Source of the DNA: Candidatus Gastranaerophilales bacterium | Lineage (GTDB): Bacteria; Cyanobacteriota; Vampirovibrionia; Gastranaerophilales; Gastranaerophilaceae | Assembly (NCBI GenBank): GCA_944325575.1 | Contig: CALVAR010000022.1 | Location: 1-38,861 of the forward strand | Reading direction: 5' to 3' | Length of the DNA: 38,861 nucleotides | Shown here: one piece after another, positions 9,004-18,704 of the stretch | How the letters are laid out: every line of letters starts with the position of its first letter | How positions within the stretch are numbered: the first letter of the stretch is position 1 | Program-made: the position numbers and the translations under genes | Notes under the pieces: model-generated | Told to the model about the DNA's origin: nothing | What the model saw: the letters and a program-made list of their open reading frames with translations, nothing else | The model's database searches: none

Positions 9004-10071
9004 ATGGAATATAAAGATTATTATCAAATATTAGGTGTAAAACGTGATGCAACACAGGCAGAGGTAAAATCCGCATACCGTAAGCTGGCTAAAAAGTATC
9101 ACCCTGATGTCAATAAAACACCGGAAGCTTCGGAAAAATTTAAAGATATAAATGAAGCTTTTGAAGTGCTGGGTGATAAAGATAAGAGAGCACGCTATGA
9201 CAGTCTTGGTTCAAACTGGCAGGCAGGGGCAAACTATACACCTCCTCCGGGATTTGAAAATTTTGGCTTTGGCGGTAACGGCGGAGCTTATCAATACAGC
9301 ACCTCCGGCATAAATTTTGAAGACTTAGGAGGATTTTCAGATTTCTTCAACAGTTTATTCGGCGGCGGATTTTCCACAGGCTCTTCAACACGCTCAAGAA
9401 GAAATGCCGGTTCTTTTTACGAAGATCTTGGCGGCGGATTTTCTTCCCGTTCTTCAAGGGCATCGTCTCAAAGGCAGCAAAAACCTGCTGTTGATTTAAA
9501 TATAACAAATGATATTAAAGTCAGTGCAAAGGATATTTTTAACCAGAAGCCTGTAAGTGTAAGAATCAATAACCTTGAAAAATGTACAAACTGTTCCGGA
9601 GTAGGCTCTATGTGCAGCCAGTGTCACGGGACAGGATTTGTCACATATTCAAAAACACTGAATGTAAAAATACCTCCGGAAGTTAAAGAAGGACAAAAAA
9701 TCCGCTTAAAAGGCGAAGGTAAATTAGGTTCGGACGGCAGCAAAGGAGATTTGTACCTTGTCGTCAAATTTGCTGATAAAGAATATTCAATAAACGGTGT
9801 TGATTTGACAAAAACGATTGAAGTATCTCCTGCAGAAGCCGTTATCGGAACAAAAAAAGAACTTTCTACACTTCATGGCAACATAAATATAAAAATCCCG
9901 CCAAGAACAACAGCCGGCTCAGTTTTACGACTTAAAGGATTAGGGCTGCCTAAAAAATCAGGCGGATACGGAAATTTAAACGTAAAAATTAATCTTGCTG
10001 TGCCCAAAAATCTTACGGATGAGCAGATAAAACTCTATGAAAAACTTTTAAAACTTGAACAAGGCGGTTAA
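9004..10071 (+). CDS. dnaJ: DnaJ-family co-chaperone with a half-size zinc module
   Basis: A 355-residue Hsp40 that stimulates DnaK ATPase and presents clients. The J-domain covers residues 3-67 with HPD at 33-35. A long Gly/Phe/Ser-rich linker follows (about 70-158, including the repeated DLGG.F). Only two CxxC motifs are present (C194/C197 and C204/C207, [18 protein letters not shown]), enough for one zinc site, whereas classical DnaJ has four motifs and two sites. Two beta-rich client-binding domains and a short C-terminal tail complete it. It is intermediate between DnaJ and the zinc-free CbpA type. No grpE or dnaK lies beside it; its last 4 bases overlap the convergent ATPase gene. Confidence 0.88.
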
Positions 10072-13000
10072 AACTTAATCTGATTTAACTGGCAAAAAGC
10101 TTTAAATGAAGCAAGATTTTTATTAATATCAGCCTGAATATTCGGTATGTCCATATCGTTTGTCATTGCAAGAGCTTTTTTGTAAGCTTCTATTGCATTA
10201 TGTGCATAATTCGCTTTATTTTGAGGTTTTTTAGAAACCATTTCTTCAAGATATTTTGCATAAAGCTGATATAGTGATATCCTCAAAAGCTTCATATCGT
10301 ATTGTTTTACAATCATCAAGCCTTTTTCTATATACATTTTTGCGGATTCCATATCTCCTTTTATCAGGAAAATTTCCGCAATAAGTTTTTTGTACAGCAC
10401 CATAAAATAGTAATTGGAGATTTTTGGATTTTTGGCCACATCAAGAGCTTTTAATGCAATATCAAGAGCCTTGTCGCTTCCGTCTGTTACAAGTGTAAGT
10501 TTTGCAATATAATACCAGCAAAGCATTGCCCCAATTGCAATTTTTTCTTTTGCAAAGATTGTCACCTGTTCATTAAAAATTTCCAGTGCCTTTGACAAGT
10601 TGCCTTCTTCCTGCAAGACCTTACCGAGAAATACCTTTAACATATTTTTGACAAGTACGTCATTATAATTATTTGCAAAGGTTGCAACAGAATACATATC
10701 CTCTTTTATATTGGCCCAGTCCTGTTTGTATATCTTGTTTAAAATATTTATAAAATTCCACATTGATATAACATCGGGTTCGAGAATCTCTTTTGTTGTT
10801 TCCTGACTGAATGTAATAAGAATATCATCCGATTTTTTAATATTTCCCAAAACACTATTCGCCAGAGCCTTGGCAAGCTGTACACGATGCAGATAATTTT
10901 TATTTGTAACGTTATTTTTTGCAACTATTTCATCAATAACTTTCAAAATGGCAAAGCATTTATTGTTACCCTGTGAAATAAGTGACAGTGCAACGGTTAA
11001 ATTACATTCAAGCCATGTTTCATAAATAATATCCATAGAAATATTATTGTTCGGTATAAGACCTGACAGAGCCTGTTCCACAACAGGGATAATTTCACTG
11101 CTTGCAAGGTTGTATATTTCTTCTGCATTACCTATACAAAACATAGCCTTCAATTTTTTATGTTTGATTAAAGCACACTCCAGTTTATTTTCCTGATTTT
11201 CAATCAATGCAAGAACTGTATCAACCGCTTCTATAACACCGTTATAATTGCCTGTCAGAGAGCAGCTCTTTGATAAATAACCGGAAAGTTCAATGATTTT
11301 AGGGCGATTGCTTACTTTTATTGCATTGTTAATTGCAACGGACAGATAGGATATTGCTTCTGTAGGTCTTGATATATAGAGTAATTTTCCAAGACGCTCA
11401 TATATATTATTAACAATAATATCGTTATTTTCCGGATTTATTTCCTGTACAATTCTCAAACACTGTTTTTGAGAAAGTGTCCAGAGATACTCATCTCCGA
11501 GATATGAGCACAGTTTAATATTATCTGTCCATATATTAAGAGCAAGAAGTTTTTGATTCAGGCTCTGTGCAACCAATGCTTTCAGGGCATTGCTTGAGAG
11601 TGTAAACATGTTTATAATATCAAATATTTTTTCATTCAAAAGCACAAAGTCTTTGCTTGTCTTTGCTTTTTCATAGACAAACTTCCATATAAGTGTATTT
11701 TTAAATTCATAAATATTGTTATTAAATTGAGTTATATATGCAAAATCAGTTAGAAGCTGCAGAACATTCTGAAACTCGTCAGGTTTAAGTTTCATAATAA
11801 TTTCCAACAGTTTTACATTAAACTTGTTGCCCATAATAGCTGCAGTACACAATGTTCTGAAGCACAGCGGAAATTTCTGCTGCAGGTAATTAAGCCTTAG
11901 TGCTAATATATCGTGCAGATTTTTAGGCAGATTGGCCTCTATAGAAGTTTGCCTGTATTTGATTTTGTTTGCCTCATTGCCAAACGCTTTATTTTCATTG
12001 AACAGCACTAGCATTTGTTCTAAATATGCACAGTTTCCGTTTGAATACTCATATATAATTTCAAAAACATGTTCCGGCAACGGATTATATCCGTTCAGAT
12101 ACAGTTTTATAAGGTTGTCGGCATCTTTCAGATTGAGCGGTGTAAGCCTTAAATCCTCATATTGATTTTGGGCAAGTTTTTCGGAATAGAAATACCCCTG
12201 TGTCAAACGATTGTCCTTATATGTAACAATCAGTTTTATATTTTCACCAAGATTCCCTTTTTCTATAAATTCAGACAAGAAGGCATAAGACGCACCGTCT
12301 ATCATGTCAAAATCATCAATTACAATAATAAGTTTAGCTTTTTGTGCAATTTCAAGAATCAGTTTTTCCAGCAGTGCAAAAGTTCTGTCTTTATTTATTA
12401 AGATGTCCTCAAAATGTGCAGTAAGTGTCGGGTACAAGAAATTAAACAATAACAAAATTTCTTCCTGTGTAAATCCCGGAAGTGTAGCCGACAACATTTG
12501 CTTTGCCTGTTTTAAAAAGTCATCTGACATATTGGAAAAATTCGGCATATTAAAGAAAGTCAGAATCATTTCCTGAAAAATGCCATAAGGACTTATTTGT
12601 GAATTTGCACTGCATTCACCCCAGAACCAGGCATAATTTTGATGCATTAAATCACCGAACAAATATTTTAAAACAGTAGATTTGCCGCTGCCCTCAGGCG
12701 CACTCAGACCCACAATCAGTTTGTGTGGATTTCTTAGTGCATCAACTATTTTGTTCTTGCATTTCATCTGATCAAATGCATTTATTTCTTCCGCTGCCAG
12801 ATCTTTCAAATCTACGGGTTCCGGAATTTCTTCAGCGGGTATTTTTTCATTCGTATTTTTATCATTTACTTCAGTATTTATTGTGTTTTCTGTAATATCC
12901 TGTTTAGTCTCTGCAACGGTTGTTTCTTGGGACTCAAGTTTCGGCTCTTCCGTATATTTTTCTTCGGGTAATTCTTCCTCTTGCAATGGTTTTTCAGCAT

Positions 13001-13628
13001 TATCTGCTTCTTTCAAGACATCTTTATTTATTACCGGCTCAGGGGTAAGATTTTCTTTTTCCAGACTTTGTGAAATTATATCTATATCATCGGCAATAGA
13101 TAACAAATCATTTGCCAATTCTTCATTAGGCTCAGGTTCTTCCCTGTTTATATCATCAAGATTGGCATTTTCTTCAATATTAATAAGTTCGTAATCGGAG
13201 AGTTTTTCAACAGTAAAATTATCATCATTCTCAGTAAGAATAGGCAAGCTGTCAGGAATATCTATATCATTAGTATTTTTAGCAATATCAGGTTCTGTAA
13301 CAAATTTTTGAGTTTCGTATAATTGACCTTCCTCAAGTTCTTTTTCCTGTGCCGATTCTTGAATTTGTTTTAAATCAACAATAGTTACAGAGCCCTGTTC
13401 TATTTCAAATTCCGTATGACATTTTCTGCAGATTTTAGCATCAGGAAGATTGACGCTATGGCATTGCGGGCAGTATTTTAAGAGCTGCAATCCGCAGCCC
13501 GCACAAAACTCGGATGTAATCGGATTCATAGTACCGCAGACAGGACATACTGTTTGCACTTTAGTATTACAAAAATTACATCTTAAAAGGTTATCAGCTA
13601 TTTCTTTTTTGCATTTAAGACAACGCAT
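10068..13628 (-). CDS. Zinc-ribbon / AAA-type ATPase / TPR protein
   Basis: A 1186-residue multidomain protein. Residues 1-72 hold six CxxC pairs (C3/C6, C17/C20, C28/C31, C42/C45, C53/C56, C67/C70), that is three tandem zinc ribbons. Residues 75-285 are an acidic, probably disordered linker. An AAA_16-type NTPase follows: Walker [10 protein letters not shown] (310-318) and Walker [10 protein letters not shown] (433-441). The remaining 600 residues are helical and TPR-like ([41 protein letters not shown]). The layout resembles the ATPase-TPR part of large class-III-cyclase or MalT-like signal proteins, but without a cyclase or HTH domain. It has its own promoter and sits downstream of the sigma/anti-sigma-like genes. 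Its partner is unknown. Confidence 0.82.
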
Positions 13629-13668
13629 GGTGATGATAATAACCGCTTAGCTAAACTAGGCATATTAT

Positions 13669-13696
13669 ATTATAAAGCGAAATTAAATTACATCAA
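13669..13696 (-). promoter_or_regulatory. Sigma-70-type promoter of the zinc-ribbon ATPase gene
   Basis: Read on the minus strand: TTGATG, 16-base spacer, TATAAT, 41 bases before the ATG at 13628. This implies that the ATPase gene can be transcribed independently of the sigma-like gene upstream. Confidence 0.55.
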
Positions 13697-13726
13697 GCAT
13701 ATAATCTAGAATCAGCTAAAACTGAC

Positions 13727-14317
13727 TTATGCCTCAAATTGAGTTTTTACAAGTTGAGACAATTCTACAAGTCTTTTGCTGACTTCTGCCTGAGAAATGT
13801 TGATTTCTGCTGCAATTTCTTTCTGCTTATATTCTTTTATATATCTCAAATAAAAAATCTTTAAGAATTCTTTTGACGGATTATTTTTTTGCGCAACAAG
13901 CACAATATCCACAATTTTTTGAAGAATATCTTTTCTGACAATTTTTTCTTCAAAAGAATCTTTTGGGTCCGCAATGTCATAGACAAATGAGCTTGCTGCT
14001 ATAACGGGAGCCTGTTTGAATTCTTCAGCTTTCTGCTTTTCTTGAACAGGACTTATAAGAATTTCATGAGAACTGACATATTTATTCTCACGTCTTCTTA
14101 TTCTTCCGTTATCTTTCAATACATTTAAAATTGCTGTATTAACAACTTTGGCAATGTAATTTTCAAGATTTTGTATATCAAGTGAGTCTAATAAAGAATA
14201 TGATCTTTTATATGTTTCTGAGCAAAAATCTTCTAGCAAATCCTCGTTTCCTTTAAACTTGCTGTTAGATTTCACCAGTTTTTCTATAAGGTCCCTTTGT
14301 CTATTTAGCGTATCCAA
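13727..14317 (-). CDS. Sigma-70-family (ECF-like) sigma factor
   Basis: A 196-residue protein with a region-2-like N-terminal half (LLEDFCSETYKRSYSLLDS, then YIAKVVNTAILNVLKDNGR) and a region-4 helix-turn-helix at the end (KIFYLRYIKEYKQKEIAAEI, then NISQAEVSKRLVELSQLV). Between them lies a 55-residue linker, long for a two-domain ECF factor. The start is TTG at 14317: the nearby ATG at 14330 runs into a stop after three codons. The gene directly upstream on the same strand encodes a protein with an anti-sigma-type zinc finger, the usual arrangement of an ECF sigma factor with its antagonist. Promoter specificity is unknown. Confidence 0.75.
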   Translation of the reverse strand: MDTLNRQRDLIEKLVKSNSKFKGNEDLLEDFCSETYKRSYSLLDSLDIQNLENYIAKVVNTAILNVLKDNGRIRRRENKYVSSHEILISPVQEKQKAEEFKQAPVIAASSFVYDIADPKDSFEEKIVRKDILQKIVDIVLVAQKNNPSKEFLKIFYLRYIKEYKQKEIAAEINISQAEVSKRLVELSQLVKTQFEA

Positions 14318-14369
14318 TTTAATAATCCATTTTGAAAAATATATAACCTGATTATATCATATCATATAA

Positions 14370-17171
14370 TTAAAAATTTATTATTAAAGTTAAGAAATAA
14401 TCGGATTTGTAATCTTTCAATTTTGGCACGCTTATATATTTTAAAGTGTTTTTAATACTTCTTAATATAATTTCATCTATTTTATCGGAACCGCTGGATT
14501 CCAACACCTGCATACCTTTCATTGTATTATCCGGTGCAATTTCAAATGAAACTTTTACACTATTATTGAATGCAATATCAGCAGAATTAGCAAGATCATT
14601 TTGTAAATTCATTTGAATATTTTTGCCTGCAGTTTGTAAATATTCTTTAACAGAAGCATCAGCAGCAAGTTTTTCACTGACCTGCCAAGAAAGTTTTGTG
14701 ATTGTTATAGCCGCAGGCTTATCAGAGAAAGAGTTTGTCATAGACTTATTGATATCCTGAGGCACAGCTGCAGTATCCGTATCCTCATCACTTCCGTTAT
14801 TTTGGAAGTCAAATAGCTCATCTCCCTGATTAGCTGCATCCTGCGCTTTGTTCTGCAGCGCTTTTTGATGATTAAAGACTAATGTTGTTCCACCTGCAGC
14901 AACCATCACAACAAGCAACCCAGCAAGTATTGCAAGTTTTTTTGTTCTTTTAACAGTTTCTGCGCTAACAGGTTCCTGAGCAAGTTCGAATGTCTGATTT
15001 TCTCCGCTTTGAGGCTGAGGATTTTCATTATTTTCAAATAATGAATTTATTGTTTCATCGGAGTGTTCTTCTGATTCATCATTGATTTGATTTTGCGGAA
15101 GTTCTTCATAGTTTTGTTGAGAAACAGTATCTTCATAATTATTTTCTGCATTTACAGCCGCATTGTTTGCAGAATCAGAATCATCATTATCCGCAAGAAG
15201 CGCCATAAGATCATCATCCAAAAGATTCTGGATTTCCGAATTTTCATCTTCAGGGTGTTTTTCTACGAAATCAAATGCTTTGTGATAAGCGTCTTCATCT
15301 GTATCGACCTGAGAGTCATTTTCTTTATTAACTTCTTTATCAAAATCAAATCCAGAAGCAACATTTAATGATTCATCGGCTTCAGGTTCATCATCATAAT
15401 TGAGTTCAATAGGTTCCTGAGGAGCGTAAGAGCTTAAATGGTCATCTTCAGATTGTATATCAAGATTAAAATTAATGCTTTCATCTTTTGAGCTTTCCTG
15501 TTGATTATCAACAGAGGTTTCATCTTGTAATTTAAGAGGTCCGTCTAGTGAATCAAGCGTATCAAGATCTTCCGGCTCTAAAGGTGATATAGTATCTTCT
15601 TCTGATTCTGTATTCAATACAAGTTCTTCTGCCTCTGTCTGTTTTGGTTCATTTTTTTCTTCAAAAATCGGCTCCGGTTCAACAGCTTCTATGTTTTCTT
15701 CCAAAAGAAGTCCGTCATCAGCTGATAGCTCCGGTAAATCTCCCTCCGGTTGAATATTATCCAATGTTTCATCTGCATTTTTAGTTAAAAGTTCATCGGA
15801 AGAGGATGTGCCATTGTCTTTTTCGTCAGCAAAAACAAGTAAATTATCGTCATTATCAACGAGATTTTCAAGAGGTTCTTCTTCAACCAGGGTTTCTTCA
15901 GAAAGTTTTTCCTTATCTTCTTCTTCAGGTTCAAGATTTAATTCGGGAATATTGTCTTCAAGAAGGTCTTCATCTTCTTCTATTTTCAGAACATCAGCGT
16001 CTTCATCAGGTTTAATTTCCGCTAAATCCTGAGTTTCTTCAAGAGGTTCAGGCTCTGTTTCCTGTAAAAGAAGAGAATCAGACATATCTTCTTCGAGAGT
16101 TTCATCCTCATGTAAAATCAGATTATCTGCTATATTTTCCTCCTGTGCAGGTGTATTTTCAGAATCAGCATTTAACAACAATTCTTCTTCAGAATCCTCC
16201 TCGAGCAGAAGAGGTTCTTCCGAATCCGGCAATAGCTCGTGGAGCTCTGCTTCTGCTGTCTGCGGCTGTTCTTCTTTTATTTCTTCAATATTTTCTTCTG
16301 TTTGCAAAACTAACGGTTCTTCTAAAATAAGACTCTGATTATCTTCAGGTTCTTCAATAAGAGAAATCGGCTCTTCTTCTGCCTGTCCTTCATCCTCCTG
16401 TGCATTTTCTACAAGTGACATATTGGCAAGCAATGCTTCATCAAATTCTTTTTGATTTCCGGAAAGGACGCTTAAAGTGCTGTCATTTAACAACTCATGG
16501 TAATTTTTAATCTGTGACATAATTGCATCAAACCCTGCTGTAATGCAAAATGCAGTTCTGCAATCAGGACAAGCAATTACATGCTTTATAAAAAAGACCT
16601 TTTCGCTTTCGGAAATTTCATCATCTATGAATGCCGCACACAGCTCTTTTATTTTTTCAAGATCATCAACAGAGCAAGGTTTATTTGACGGTTTCAAAGA
16701 TTTAATAAAATCAGCCAATCTGTCAACCGAAGATAGTATATCTGTACTAAACGCATAATAAGGTGTATCTGTTCTGTTGTATTCTATTTTTGATGCATCC
16801 AGATATCCCAAAAGCTCTGCCTGTTTATTTTTTTCATCAAGTTTTATCACGAGATATGCACAAGGTACCGCATCATATTTTTCGTGCGTTTTGGGTATAG
16901 TAAATGAAGTACCGTCAAATGTAATTCTTACATCCAATCTGCAGCCGTTTACATAAATATCTGCAAGTTCAAAGCTTTTTGCAAAAGAGGATATTTTAAA
17001 AAGACTGTTTTTTGTATCAGCGTTAATTCCAAGCTTATTCAATGCTTCTGCGGCCGCATTTGCTGCTATATTCAATGCATAGGCTCTTATTCTGGTTTCT
17101 TTATCTTCTATTTTGCATGCAATAGCCGCACTTTCATTTATATAGTTATTAATATTTACCGTTAATGACAT
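14370..17171 (-). CDS. DUF1822-like / anti-sigma zinc finger / TonB-C-like fusion
   Basis: A 933-residue protein with an unusual chain of modules. Residues about 25-130 resemble the cyanobacterial DUF1822 domain (ALNKLGINADTKNS, ADIYVNGCRLDVR, AYLVIKLDEKNKQAELLGYL). Residues 175-206 carry the anti-sigma zinc-finger pattern H197-x3-C201-x2-C204 (HVIACPDC) after FIDDEISESE. A very acidic region of about 510 residues follows, with recurring EEPLVL/LLLEED-type phrases. One transmembrane helix lies at about 746-766 (LAILAGLLVVMVAAGGTTLVF). The exported end (about 820-933) looks like a TonB C-terminal or TolA-like fold: VKVSFEIAPDNTMKGMQVLESSGS, then a helix and SDYFLTLIINF. The topology puts the zinc finger in the cytoplasm beside the sigma-like factor and the TonB-like end outside. 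The start has a GAGG site. Confidence 0.78.
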   Translation of the reverse strand: MSLTVNINNYINESAAIACKIEDKETRIRAYALNIAANAAAEALNKLGINADTKNSLFKISSFAKSFELADIYVNGCRLDVRITFDGTSFTIPKTHEKYDAVPCAYLVIKLDEKNKQAELLGYLDASKIEYNRTDTPYYAFSTDILSSVDRLADFIKSLKPSNKPCSVDDLEKIKELCAAFIDDEISESEKVFFIKHVIACPDCRTAFCITAGFDAIMSQIKNYHELLNDSTLSVLSGNQKEFDEALLANMSLVENAQEDEGQAEEEPISLIEEPEDNQSLILEEPLVLQTEENIEEIKEEQPQTAEAELHELLPDSEEPLLLEEDSEEELLLNADSENTPAQEENIADNLILHEDETLEEDMSDSLLLQETEPEPLEETQDLAEIKPDEDADVLKIEEDEDLLEDNIPELNLEPEEEDKEKLSEETLVEEEPLENLVDNDDNLLVFADEKDNGTSSSDELLTKNADETLDNIQPEGDLPELSADDGLLLEENIEAVEPEPIFEEKNEPKQTEAEELVLNTESEEDTISPLEPEDLDTLDSLDGPLKLQDETSVDNQQESSKDESINFNLDIQSEDDHLSSYAPQEPIELNYDDEPEADESLNVASGFDFDKEVNKENDSQVDTDEDAYHKAFDFVEKHPEDENSEIQNLLDDDLMALLADNDDSDSANNAAVNAENNYEDTVSQQNYEELPQNQINDESEEHSDETINSLFENNENPQPQSGENQTFELAQEPVSAETVKRTKKLAILAGLLVVMVAAGGTTLVFNHQKALQNKAQDAANQGDELFDFQNNGSDEDTDTAAVPQDINKSMTNSFSDKPAAITITKLSWQVSEKLAADASVKEYLQTAGKNIQMNLQNDLANSADIAFNNSVKVSFEIAPDNTMKGMQVLESSGSDKIDEIILRSIKNTLKYISVPKLKDYKSDYFLTLIINF

Positions 17172-17227
17172 ACCTTTAATCCTCTTTTTCTTTTATATTT
17201 ATTTAGATTACAGATTTAAAAAAAATA

Positions 17228-17286
17228 TTCCAAAATTACATAATAAATGTTATAATGTAACAAAATGTTTCATGTTTTCAAACATG
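17228..17286 (+). promoter_or_regulatory. Promoter and palindrome before the small membrane gene
   Basis: TTCCAA at 17228 and TATAAT at 17251-17256 are separated by 17 bases. Just after the expected transcription start lies a perfect inverted repeat, CATGTTT-TC-AAACATG (17271-17286), well placed as an operator or 5' UTR hairpin. Confidence 0.45.
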
Positions 17287-17361
17287 TTCGCATCTGATGG
17301 CAATAAAAGTTTTCTTTGTGTTTTGTATGTGTATAAAGTGTAAAAGACAGGAGTGTTTAGT

Positions 17362-17760
17362 ATGTTAGTAGGTTTTTCTACAATCAGACCAATGAGTCAG
17401 GAAACAATTTCAAAAGCGTCAGCTTATTCAGTAAACGGCCAGACGGCAGCACAACCTGCGGCCGCTAATCCAATGGTAGGGCCGGCAGGAACTTATCAGC
17501 CCAAGAAAAAGAGCCACTGGTTTGCAAAAACCGTTGTTACATTGGCTGTTCTTGCAGCAGCAGTAGGTCTTGGCAGAAAATATTTGCCAAATACATTTAA
17601 TCCTGATGCCGTATTAAAAGAAGGTGCAAAATGGTATGAAAAAGGATTGCATTATGCTACAAAATATATAGGAAAAGCCGGTGAGTATGTAAACACCTAT
17701 GCATCTAAAGCATGGAACTGGGCAACTAATTTATTTAAAAAAAGTGAAAAAGCTGCATAA
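17362..17760 (+). CDS. Small single-pass membrane protein
   Basis: A 132-residue protein starting MLVGFSTIRPMSQETISKAS. The frame is open from GTG 17353, but that GTG is part of the ribosome site CAGGAG (17348-17353), eight bases ahead of ATG 17362, which settles the start. The N-terminal 45 residues are Ala/Pro/Gln-rich and probably disordered. A basic segment (PKKKSHWFAK) leads into one transmembrane helix (about TVVTLAVLAAAVGLG), followed by an amphipathic aromatic tail (WYEKGLHYATKYIGKAGEYV). No family is recognised. It is a monocistronic gene with its own promoter and a strong terminator, which suggests good expression. Confidence 0.75.
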   Translation: MLVGFSTIRPMSQETISKASAYSVNGQTAAQPAAANPMVGPAGTYQPKKKSHWFAKTVVTLAVLAAAVGLGRKYLPNTFNPDAVLKEGAKWYEKGLHYATKYIGKAGEYVNTYASKAWNWATNLFKKSEKAA

Positions 17761-17780
17761 TTAAGTAAAAAATACACATA

Positions 17781-17820
17781 AAAACCGCCTTTGACTATAT
17801 AAAGCTTAAAGGCGGTTTTT
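17781..17820. terminator. Bidirectional terminator
   Basis: AAAACCGCCTTT (17781-17792) pairs with AAAGGCGGTTTT (17808-17819), with A and T tracts on both sides. It ends the small membrane gene on the plus strand and the EamA transporter on the minus strand. Confidence 0.85.
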
Positions 17821-18704
17821 TATTTATGCATACGTTTCCTTGTAATAATTAAAAATACACCAAAGAGAATTAACGCAACACCTATGCATATTCGCAAGGT
17901 AAGCTGTTCATGGAAAAATACGACTCCCAAAAATATTGCGGTTAAAGGCTCCAATGCACCAAGAATGGCAGTTGTTGTTGAGCCAATTAATTTTATAGAT
18001 ATTGTAATCGTCTCCAGCGAGATAATAGTAGGGAATAATGCCAGAGCCACCGTGCACAGCCAGAGCATAGGAGAATCTATAATTTGGAGCTGGGTACAGA
18101 ATTTGAGATTGTAAATGTAGACCAATAATCCGAACAGCATCACATAAAAACTGAGTTTATCCGTTTTTATATGGCTCACTGTTTTTATATTTTTAACACC
18201 GACTATGTAAAGTGCATAGAGCAACGCAGAGAGTAAAACAACAGAAACACCGTGAATATTAAGAGTCATGCCGGTTTTCCCCTTATATAAAAGACCTATA
18301 CCCATAGATGTTAATAATATGGAAAATATAACGGTTTTTGTTATTTTTTCTTTGAAAAACAAAGTCATAATTATAGCAACAAGAAGCGGGTAAATAAAAA
18401 GTATGGTACAGGCAATACCTGCTTCTATATATTTAAATGCTTCAAAAAGCGTTAATGAAGAAAGCGAGAAAAACAAACCGAGAAAAAACAAAGGCACGAA
18501 CTCTTTAAAAGTAATTTTTAAAGAAACCTTTTTAACAAATTTAAGCCAGATACCATATATAATTACGGCAAAAGCATATCTGTAAAACAACACCGAATTT
18601 ACCCCTATCCCTCCCGCATACAGAGGAAGTGCAAATAGCGGGTTTGTACCGTAACTTGCCGCTGCTATGGCTCCGTTTATGAATCCTATTGTTTGTCTTT
18701 TCAT
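17820..18704 (-). CDS. EamA-family (DMT) transporter
   Basis: A 294-residue inner-membrane protein with ten predicted hydrophobic helices in two repeated halves of five, the layout of EamA/RhaT drug-metabolite transporters. Recognisable stretches are FINGAIAAASYGTNPLFALP at the start, GIACTILFIYPLLVAIIMTL at the end of repeat one, and ILGALEPLTAIFLGVVFFHE in repeat two, where the LEP-T motif is characteristic. It is most likely an exporter or importer of small metabolites; the substrate cannot be predicted. It is a single gene between the terminator at 17781 and the divergent spermidine synthase. No clear ribosome site is visible. Confidence 0.9.
   Translation of the reverse strand: MKRQTIGFINGAIAAASYGTNPLFALPLYAGGIGVNSVLFYRYAFAVIIYGIWLKFVKKVSLKITFKEFVPLFFLGLFFSLSSLTLFEAFKYIEAGIACTILFIYPLLVAIIMTLFFKEKITKTVIFSILLTSMGIGLLYKGKTGMTLNIHGVSVVLLSALLYALYIVGVKNIKTVSHIKTDKLSFYVMLFGLLVYIYNLKFCTQLQIIDSPMLWLCTVALALFPTIISLETITISIKLIGSTTTAILGALEPLTAIFLGVVFFHEQLTLRICIGVALILFGVFLIITRKRMHK

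Follow-up and report, generated by a model that had tools for sequence, protein, structure and literature searches.

A predicted ECF-like sigma factor and a putative membrane-anchored anti-sigma factor with DUF1822 and TonB/TolA-like domains in Gastranaerophilales

Genes and sequence features of the locus

The window (38,861 nucleotides, the whole stretch of DNA that was analyzed) comes from a Candidatus Gastranaerophilales genome and carries on its minus strand three genes in the order gene A, sigma factor gene and DZR/AAA_16/TPR gene, with gaps of 52 nt and 98 nt according to the ORF coordinates. The features of the locus are as follows:

17251-17272, minus strand: second conserved block TGAAACATTTTGTTACATTATA, with the dyad TGTTA-N5-TAACA, found in the window's own genus
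17205-17231, minus strand: promoter-like element GGAATATTTTTTTTAAATCTGTAATCT, which begins 60 nt before the ATG of gene A
14370-17171, minus strand: gene A, 933 aa, with a DUF1822-like domain, an anti-sigma domain, an acidic tract, a transmembrane (TM) helix and a TonB/TolA-like C-terminus
16677-17171, minus strand: DUF1822 domain of gene A, residues 1-165, for which the model shows a diverged alpha/beta fold of PD-(D/E)XK-like type that includes D71...D80-x-R82
16503-16667, minus strand: predicted anti-sigma domain (zf-HC2/ZAS), residues 169-223, with the zinc motif H197-x3-C201-x2-C204
14967-16451, minus strand: acidic low-complexity tract, residues 241-735, net charge -154
14871-14945, minus strand: single transmembrane segment, residues 743-767, predicted N-in/C-out, preceded by KRTKK
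14373-14696, minus strand: TonB/TolA-like C-terminal domain, residues 826-933, with a TonB_2 match and a fold match
13727-14317, minus strand: ECF-like sigma factor, 196 aa, TTG start, with the region 4 helix ISQAEVSKRL
10068-13628, minus strand: third gene of the cluster, 1186 aa, with a double zinc ribbon (DZR), an AAA_16 NTPase and TPR

The first-pass annotation had placed a sigma-like gene directly behind gene A, and the product of the gene found there on the same strand indeed passes the TIGR02937 (sigma70-ECF) model (50.2 bits; cut-off: 42.9). All its Pfam scores fall below the cut-offs (region 2: 15.6 vs 24 bits; region 4: 23.3 vs 24.1; region 4_2: 24.1 vs 25.7), the profile comparison detects SigW (E-value 9.6e-4), and its region 4 helix has the form SQxExxKR. 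The DZR/AAA_16/TPR gene adjoins the sigma gene in most sampled loci in which the pair is linked. Beside gene A, a divergent gene for a 135-aa membrane-type protein (17353-17760, plus strand) is kept in the window's own genus and in some other genera, and its product matches no family above the Pfam cut-off. The Rfam search of positions 9900-18000 reported no match.

Domain architecture of gene A

The N-terminal domain, previously proposed to be DUF1822 (PF08852), gives a weak match in the window's own protein (E-value 1.5e-4), and in one Pfam search the full-length protein showed no DUF1822 match at E<=1; most orthologues score above the cut-off. At the level of sequence profiles, an HMM-HMM comparison against 20 DUF1822 proteins of cyanobacteria bears out the homology (99.4%, E-value 1.9e-20, 166 columns). 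The AlphaFold model, built from residues 1-275 of gene A together with ten related sequences, has a pLDDT of roughly 72-93 per ten-residue block over residues 1-210 and lower values beyond. For residues 1-160, the top structural matches are mostly PD-(D/E)XK proteins (Hjc, NhoI, DpnI, PvuII and others), the best being Hjc (Z-score: 8.1, 107 residues, 3.1 A), a Z-score near the level that the tool calls common. D71 stands at the head of a strand and D80-x-R82 on the strand that follows, at the positions expected for the nuclease motif; the catalytic D...(D/E)xK pattern of PD-(D/E)XK nucleases is not retained, with Arg in place of Lys, and the motif residues vary across the sampled order. DUF1822 may have a degenerate PD-(D/E)XK fold, which we offer as a structural hypothesis; the model of the N-terminal half would be at odds with the label "TPR protein" given to DUF1822 in PMC8195603. 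Foldseek alone, run with the N-terminal model against the PDB, reported nothing under E 0.001, and the PDB sequence search with the N-terminal alignment yielded weak matches only (RslA, E 0.5). Against a viral library, the same model matched phage proteins of about 130-250 aa, mostly unnamed, with one named restriction endonuclease among them.

The next domain contains the HVIACPDC motif (residues 197-204) behind DDEISESE, as noticed in the first-pass annotation, which took it for a zinc-binding ZAS domain. The zf-HC2 family (PF13490) is matched with 26.3 bits (cut-off: 22.2), and the modelled residues 169-222 align to MucA (Z-score: 5.5, 54 residues, 2.7 A), with further matches to the zinc form of RsiW (Z-score: 4.8) and to RslA (Z-score: 4.7). 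Both motif and fold are thus present in the window, and it is the importance of zinc that has to be revised: because the ligands are missing in 17 of the 40 aligned orthologues while the helices align in all of them, the ligands appear, from the alignment, to be dispensable. A comparable mixture is found among the class I anti-sigma factors (ASDI), about half of which carry Hx3Cx2C (PMC7406223).

Residues 241-735 form a tract with 34% D/E and 3% K/R, followed by the only TM window of the protein, for which the positive-inside rule suggests the N-in/C-out orientation. The acidic tract is absent from gene A in genera g17, g18, g22 and g24, in which the sigma factor is unlinked or undetected, and it is short in one genome of family f7; in family f6 it is retained though sigma is unlinked. 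Acidic segments also occur within sigma factors: in genus g14, two sigma proteins, of 582 and 485 aa, have their regions 2 and 4 separated by acidic inserts (424 and 341 residues, respectively), and an insert of 173 residues occupies this place in one sigma of f7. According to PMC11119718, the accessory domains of cyanobacterial sigma factors are never situated between the essential domains. Since the tract is missing from gene A in the four genera and lies inside sigma in g14 and one f7 genome, we speculate, quite tentatively, that it works within the sigma/anti-sigma complex as a module that can be transferred between partners, e.g. a DNA mimic that bars sigma or the RNA polymerase from promoters. 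An acidic module that changes its partner amounts to a natural experiment.

The isolated C-terminus scores above the TonB_2 cut-off (26.3 bits vs 22), with the full-length protein just below it (21.2), and of 33 orthologues, 29 match TonB_2 at E<=0.1. The model, less confident than that of the N-terminus (residues 826-933: pLDDT mostly 71-82, with a single block at 64), matches the C-terminal domains of TolA and TonB. The TonB-type fold postulated in the first-pass annotation is thus recovered, and both this fold and the ZAS-type fold, whose absence from the models would have spoken against the proposal, are found. Other features of a TonB energy transducer are missing: the TM segment KKLAILAGLLVVMVAAGGTTLVF contains no His and the linker has only a few Pro residues. 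Moreover, a search of 13 genomes of the genus detected no Plug domain of a TonB-dependent receptor, whereas three control genomes were positive. We therefore rejected gene A as a TonB energy transducer; a route via a TonB-dependent receptor seems unlikely from these searches, and TolA or GltJ would be the better comparison for the outer end.

Two further loci of the window's genome encode proteins of related type. One (L147:3841-9517, G000:C1) is a row of genes for TonB (398 aa), ExbB, two ExbD proteins and a 646-aa protein resembling the Omp85/BamA type. The other (L148:4995-9856, G000:C3) encodes a 340-aa zinc-ribbon/TM/TonB_2 protein with a GltJ-like order of domains, as well as a 286-aa TM protein and a 223-aa protein that, judged by eye, have a TonB-like end and a vWA-like domain, respectively; no sigma gene was recognized alongside.

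Conservation of the pair and of the promoter-like element

Gene A was found in 142 of the 146 species (genomes) of the order and the sigma factor in 141, both in single copy. Many of these genomes are metagenome-derived, so the absence of a gene from one of them is weak evidence. The sigma gene lies directly downstream of gene A, on the same strand, in 117 of 140 genomes; the proposal thus also withstands the other check set in the first-pass annotation, that the two genes be neighbors in relatives. Some pairs are on different contigs, where adjacency cannot be judged. The pair is split in family f6 and in g17, g18, g22 and g24; in these four genera the zinc motif of gene A is intact though no sigma adjoins it, and in two of the three g22 genomes no sigma relative was detected. 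In genus g12, gene A corresponds to two genes, one for DUF1822 and the anti-sigma domain and the other for the acidic, TM and TonB parts.

The alignment of regions upstream of gene A within the window's own genus revealed the two conserved blocks listed above. Most of the genera and families sampled have the block with GGAATA, a T-tract and TCT (GGAAT-N19-TCT), with fixed spacing and about 50-65 nt ahead of gene A. Among the matches listed, 48 of 69 genomes have the exact element no more than 500 nt ahead of gene A, where the remaining matches of the element would predict 0.013. Every one of the 17 sampled loci whose sigma carries SQxExxKR in region 4 has the element, and none of the 8 loci that lost this helix does (Fisher p 9e-7, a value that ignores the shared ancestry of the loci). 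In family f6, sigma is unlinked yet has kept the helix, and the element is preserved before gene A. The form of the GGAATA element, its position and its co-variation suggest a putative ECF promoter; the same bases could also be read as a sigma-70 promoter. A regulon search with the promoter block in the window's own genome returned no second convincing target, the other exact match lying inside an ORF.

Two genera deviate from this arrangement. In g23, a distance of about 440 nt separates the upstream element from the first N-terminal match, and in one locus of this genus (L186:529-846, G132) a 105-aa ORF is found between the element and gene A. In g14 (L091-L093), the GGAATA element is missing upstream of gene A and a different stretch, TATAGATTTTTTTT..., is shared, which could possibly represent a changed promoter suiting the changed sigma.

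Comparison with known systems and predicted function

The closest parallels are the ECF sigma/ASDI pairs (SigW-RsiW, AlgU-MucA, SigL-RslA), which likewise have adjacent genes, an Hx3Cx2C anti-sigma domain, one TM helix, a GGAA-type -35-like element before the operon and a mixture of zinc and zinc-free members (PMC7406223). Unlike them, gene A possesses DUF1822 ahead of the anti-sigma domain, an acidic tract of ~500 residues and a TonB/TolA-like outer domain, and the anti-sigma gene precedes the sigma gene. The same genome also contains an ordinary ECF/zf-HC2 pair (G000:C16, L151 3756-5078), similar in that sigma lies beside a zf-HC2 protein, apparently membrane-anchored, but with sigma first and an anti-sigma factor of only 231 aa that has no acidic tract and no recognized DUF1822 or TonB-like domain. 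GltJ/AgmX of Myxococcus gliding and TolA/TonB share with gene A a cytoplasmic part, a TM segment and a periplasmic TonB-type C-terminus; gene A differs from them by the lack of a proline-rich linker and of a TM His, by the internal anti-sigma-like domain and by the paired sigma gene. In the literature searched, no paper combined zf-HC2 with TonB and anti-sigma, and none named Gastranaerophilales alongside sigma factors or Melainabacteria alongside anti-sigma factors. We found no precedent for this order of modules there, and the first-pass annotation knew of no such anti-sigma factor.

Given the domains, the order-wide pairing, and the element with its tie to SQxExxKR, an autoregulated ECF-like sigma factor with a transmembrane anti-sigma factor appears very probable, and we favor with good confidence the prediction that the autoregulation is positive and that the product of gene A is the membrane-anchored anti-sigma factor. 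The pairing of a sigma with its anti-sigma factor, suggested in the first-pass annotation, is supported by the anti-sigma-like fold in the model and by the conservation of the pair across the order. We infer that gene A binds and inhibits sigma, and likewise the membrane topology, the periplasmic signal and the mechanism of release. At rest, sigma would be bound through its regions 2/4 by residues 169-223 and so be kept on the inner side of the cytoplasmic membrane; DUF1822 and the acidic tract would play accessory roles in the cytoplasm. The TonB/TolA-like C-terminal domain would sense a periplasmic change and transmit the signal through the one TM helix, either by proteolysis or by a change of conformation. 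Sigma would thereby be released and could then join the RNA polymerase and transcribe its own operon from the GGAATA-N-TCT promoter.

Alternatively, gene A might be mainly an envelope-structure protein (TolA-, GltJ- or SjdR-like), the target of sigma and not its inhibitor, in which case the zf-HC2 region would be a structural relic or would dock another partner. Gene A does persist without a neighboring sigma in g17, g18, g22 and g24, its C-terminus is more strongly conserved in the genus than any other part (identity per column averaging 81% for residues 725-933 vs 67% for the N-terminal part), and the genome encodes another zinc-ribbon/TM/TonB_2 protein with no sigma gene recognized beside it. 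We nevertheless regard this possibility as unlikely, in view of the anti-sigma-like fold and motif, the helices retained even where the zinc ligands are lost, the order-wide pairing and the promoter-like element shared before both genes.

It is less likely still that DUF1822 is the main sigma-binding part and the zinc-finger region an accessory. As stated in the first-pass annotation, cyanobacterial DUF1822 genes do adjoin sigma genes: in several sampled loci they immediately follow genes with sigma-70 region 4 and encode homologous proteins without HxxxCxxC, and neighborhoods of ECF sigma, DUF1822 and EACC2-caspase genes have been reported (PMC8195603). Some of the sampled loci include a CHAT/CHASE2 protein. 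There DUF1822 is free-standing and sigma lies upstream, in contrast to the window, and DUF1822 frames outside the order reach at most 500 aa among the matches listed, compared with the 933 aa of gene A. What speaks against DUF1822 as the binding part is the persistence of the anti-sigma helices throughout the sampled order, in contrast to the variable DUF1822 motif residues; in addition, the cyanobacterial proteins might contain an anti-sigma domain of the zinc-free kind.

Cell-surface signaling of the FecR/FecA type, with a TonB-dependent receptor acting on the periplasmic domain of the anti-sigma factor, would fit the TonB-like C-terminal fold and the TonB-ExbB-ExbD-ExbD locus of the genome, but was rejected as very improbable in the face of the Plug search of the 13 genomes and its positive controls.

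Returning to the sigma/anti-sigma prediction, which we prefer, the proposal of the first-pass annotation that an envelope state is sensed through the outer end may stand with TolA or GltJ, in place of TonB, as the model for this end. Gastranaerophilales inhabit animal guts and are a poorly known order. The findings reported here offer for it an order-wide, single-copy regulatory pair together with a ready-made candidate promoter for testing in a surrogate host, and add a TonB/TolA-like outer domain for anti-sigma factors as well as a structural hypothesis for DUF1822. As the near-universal pair carries a promoter-like element of fixed spacing, envelope-responsive gene switching in this order can now be tested.
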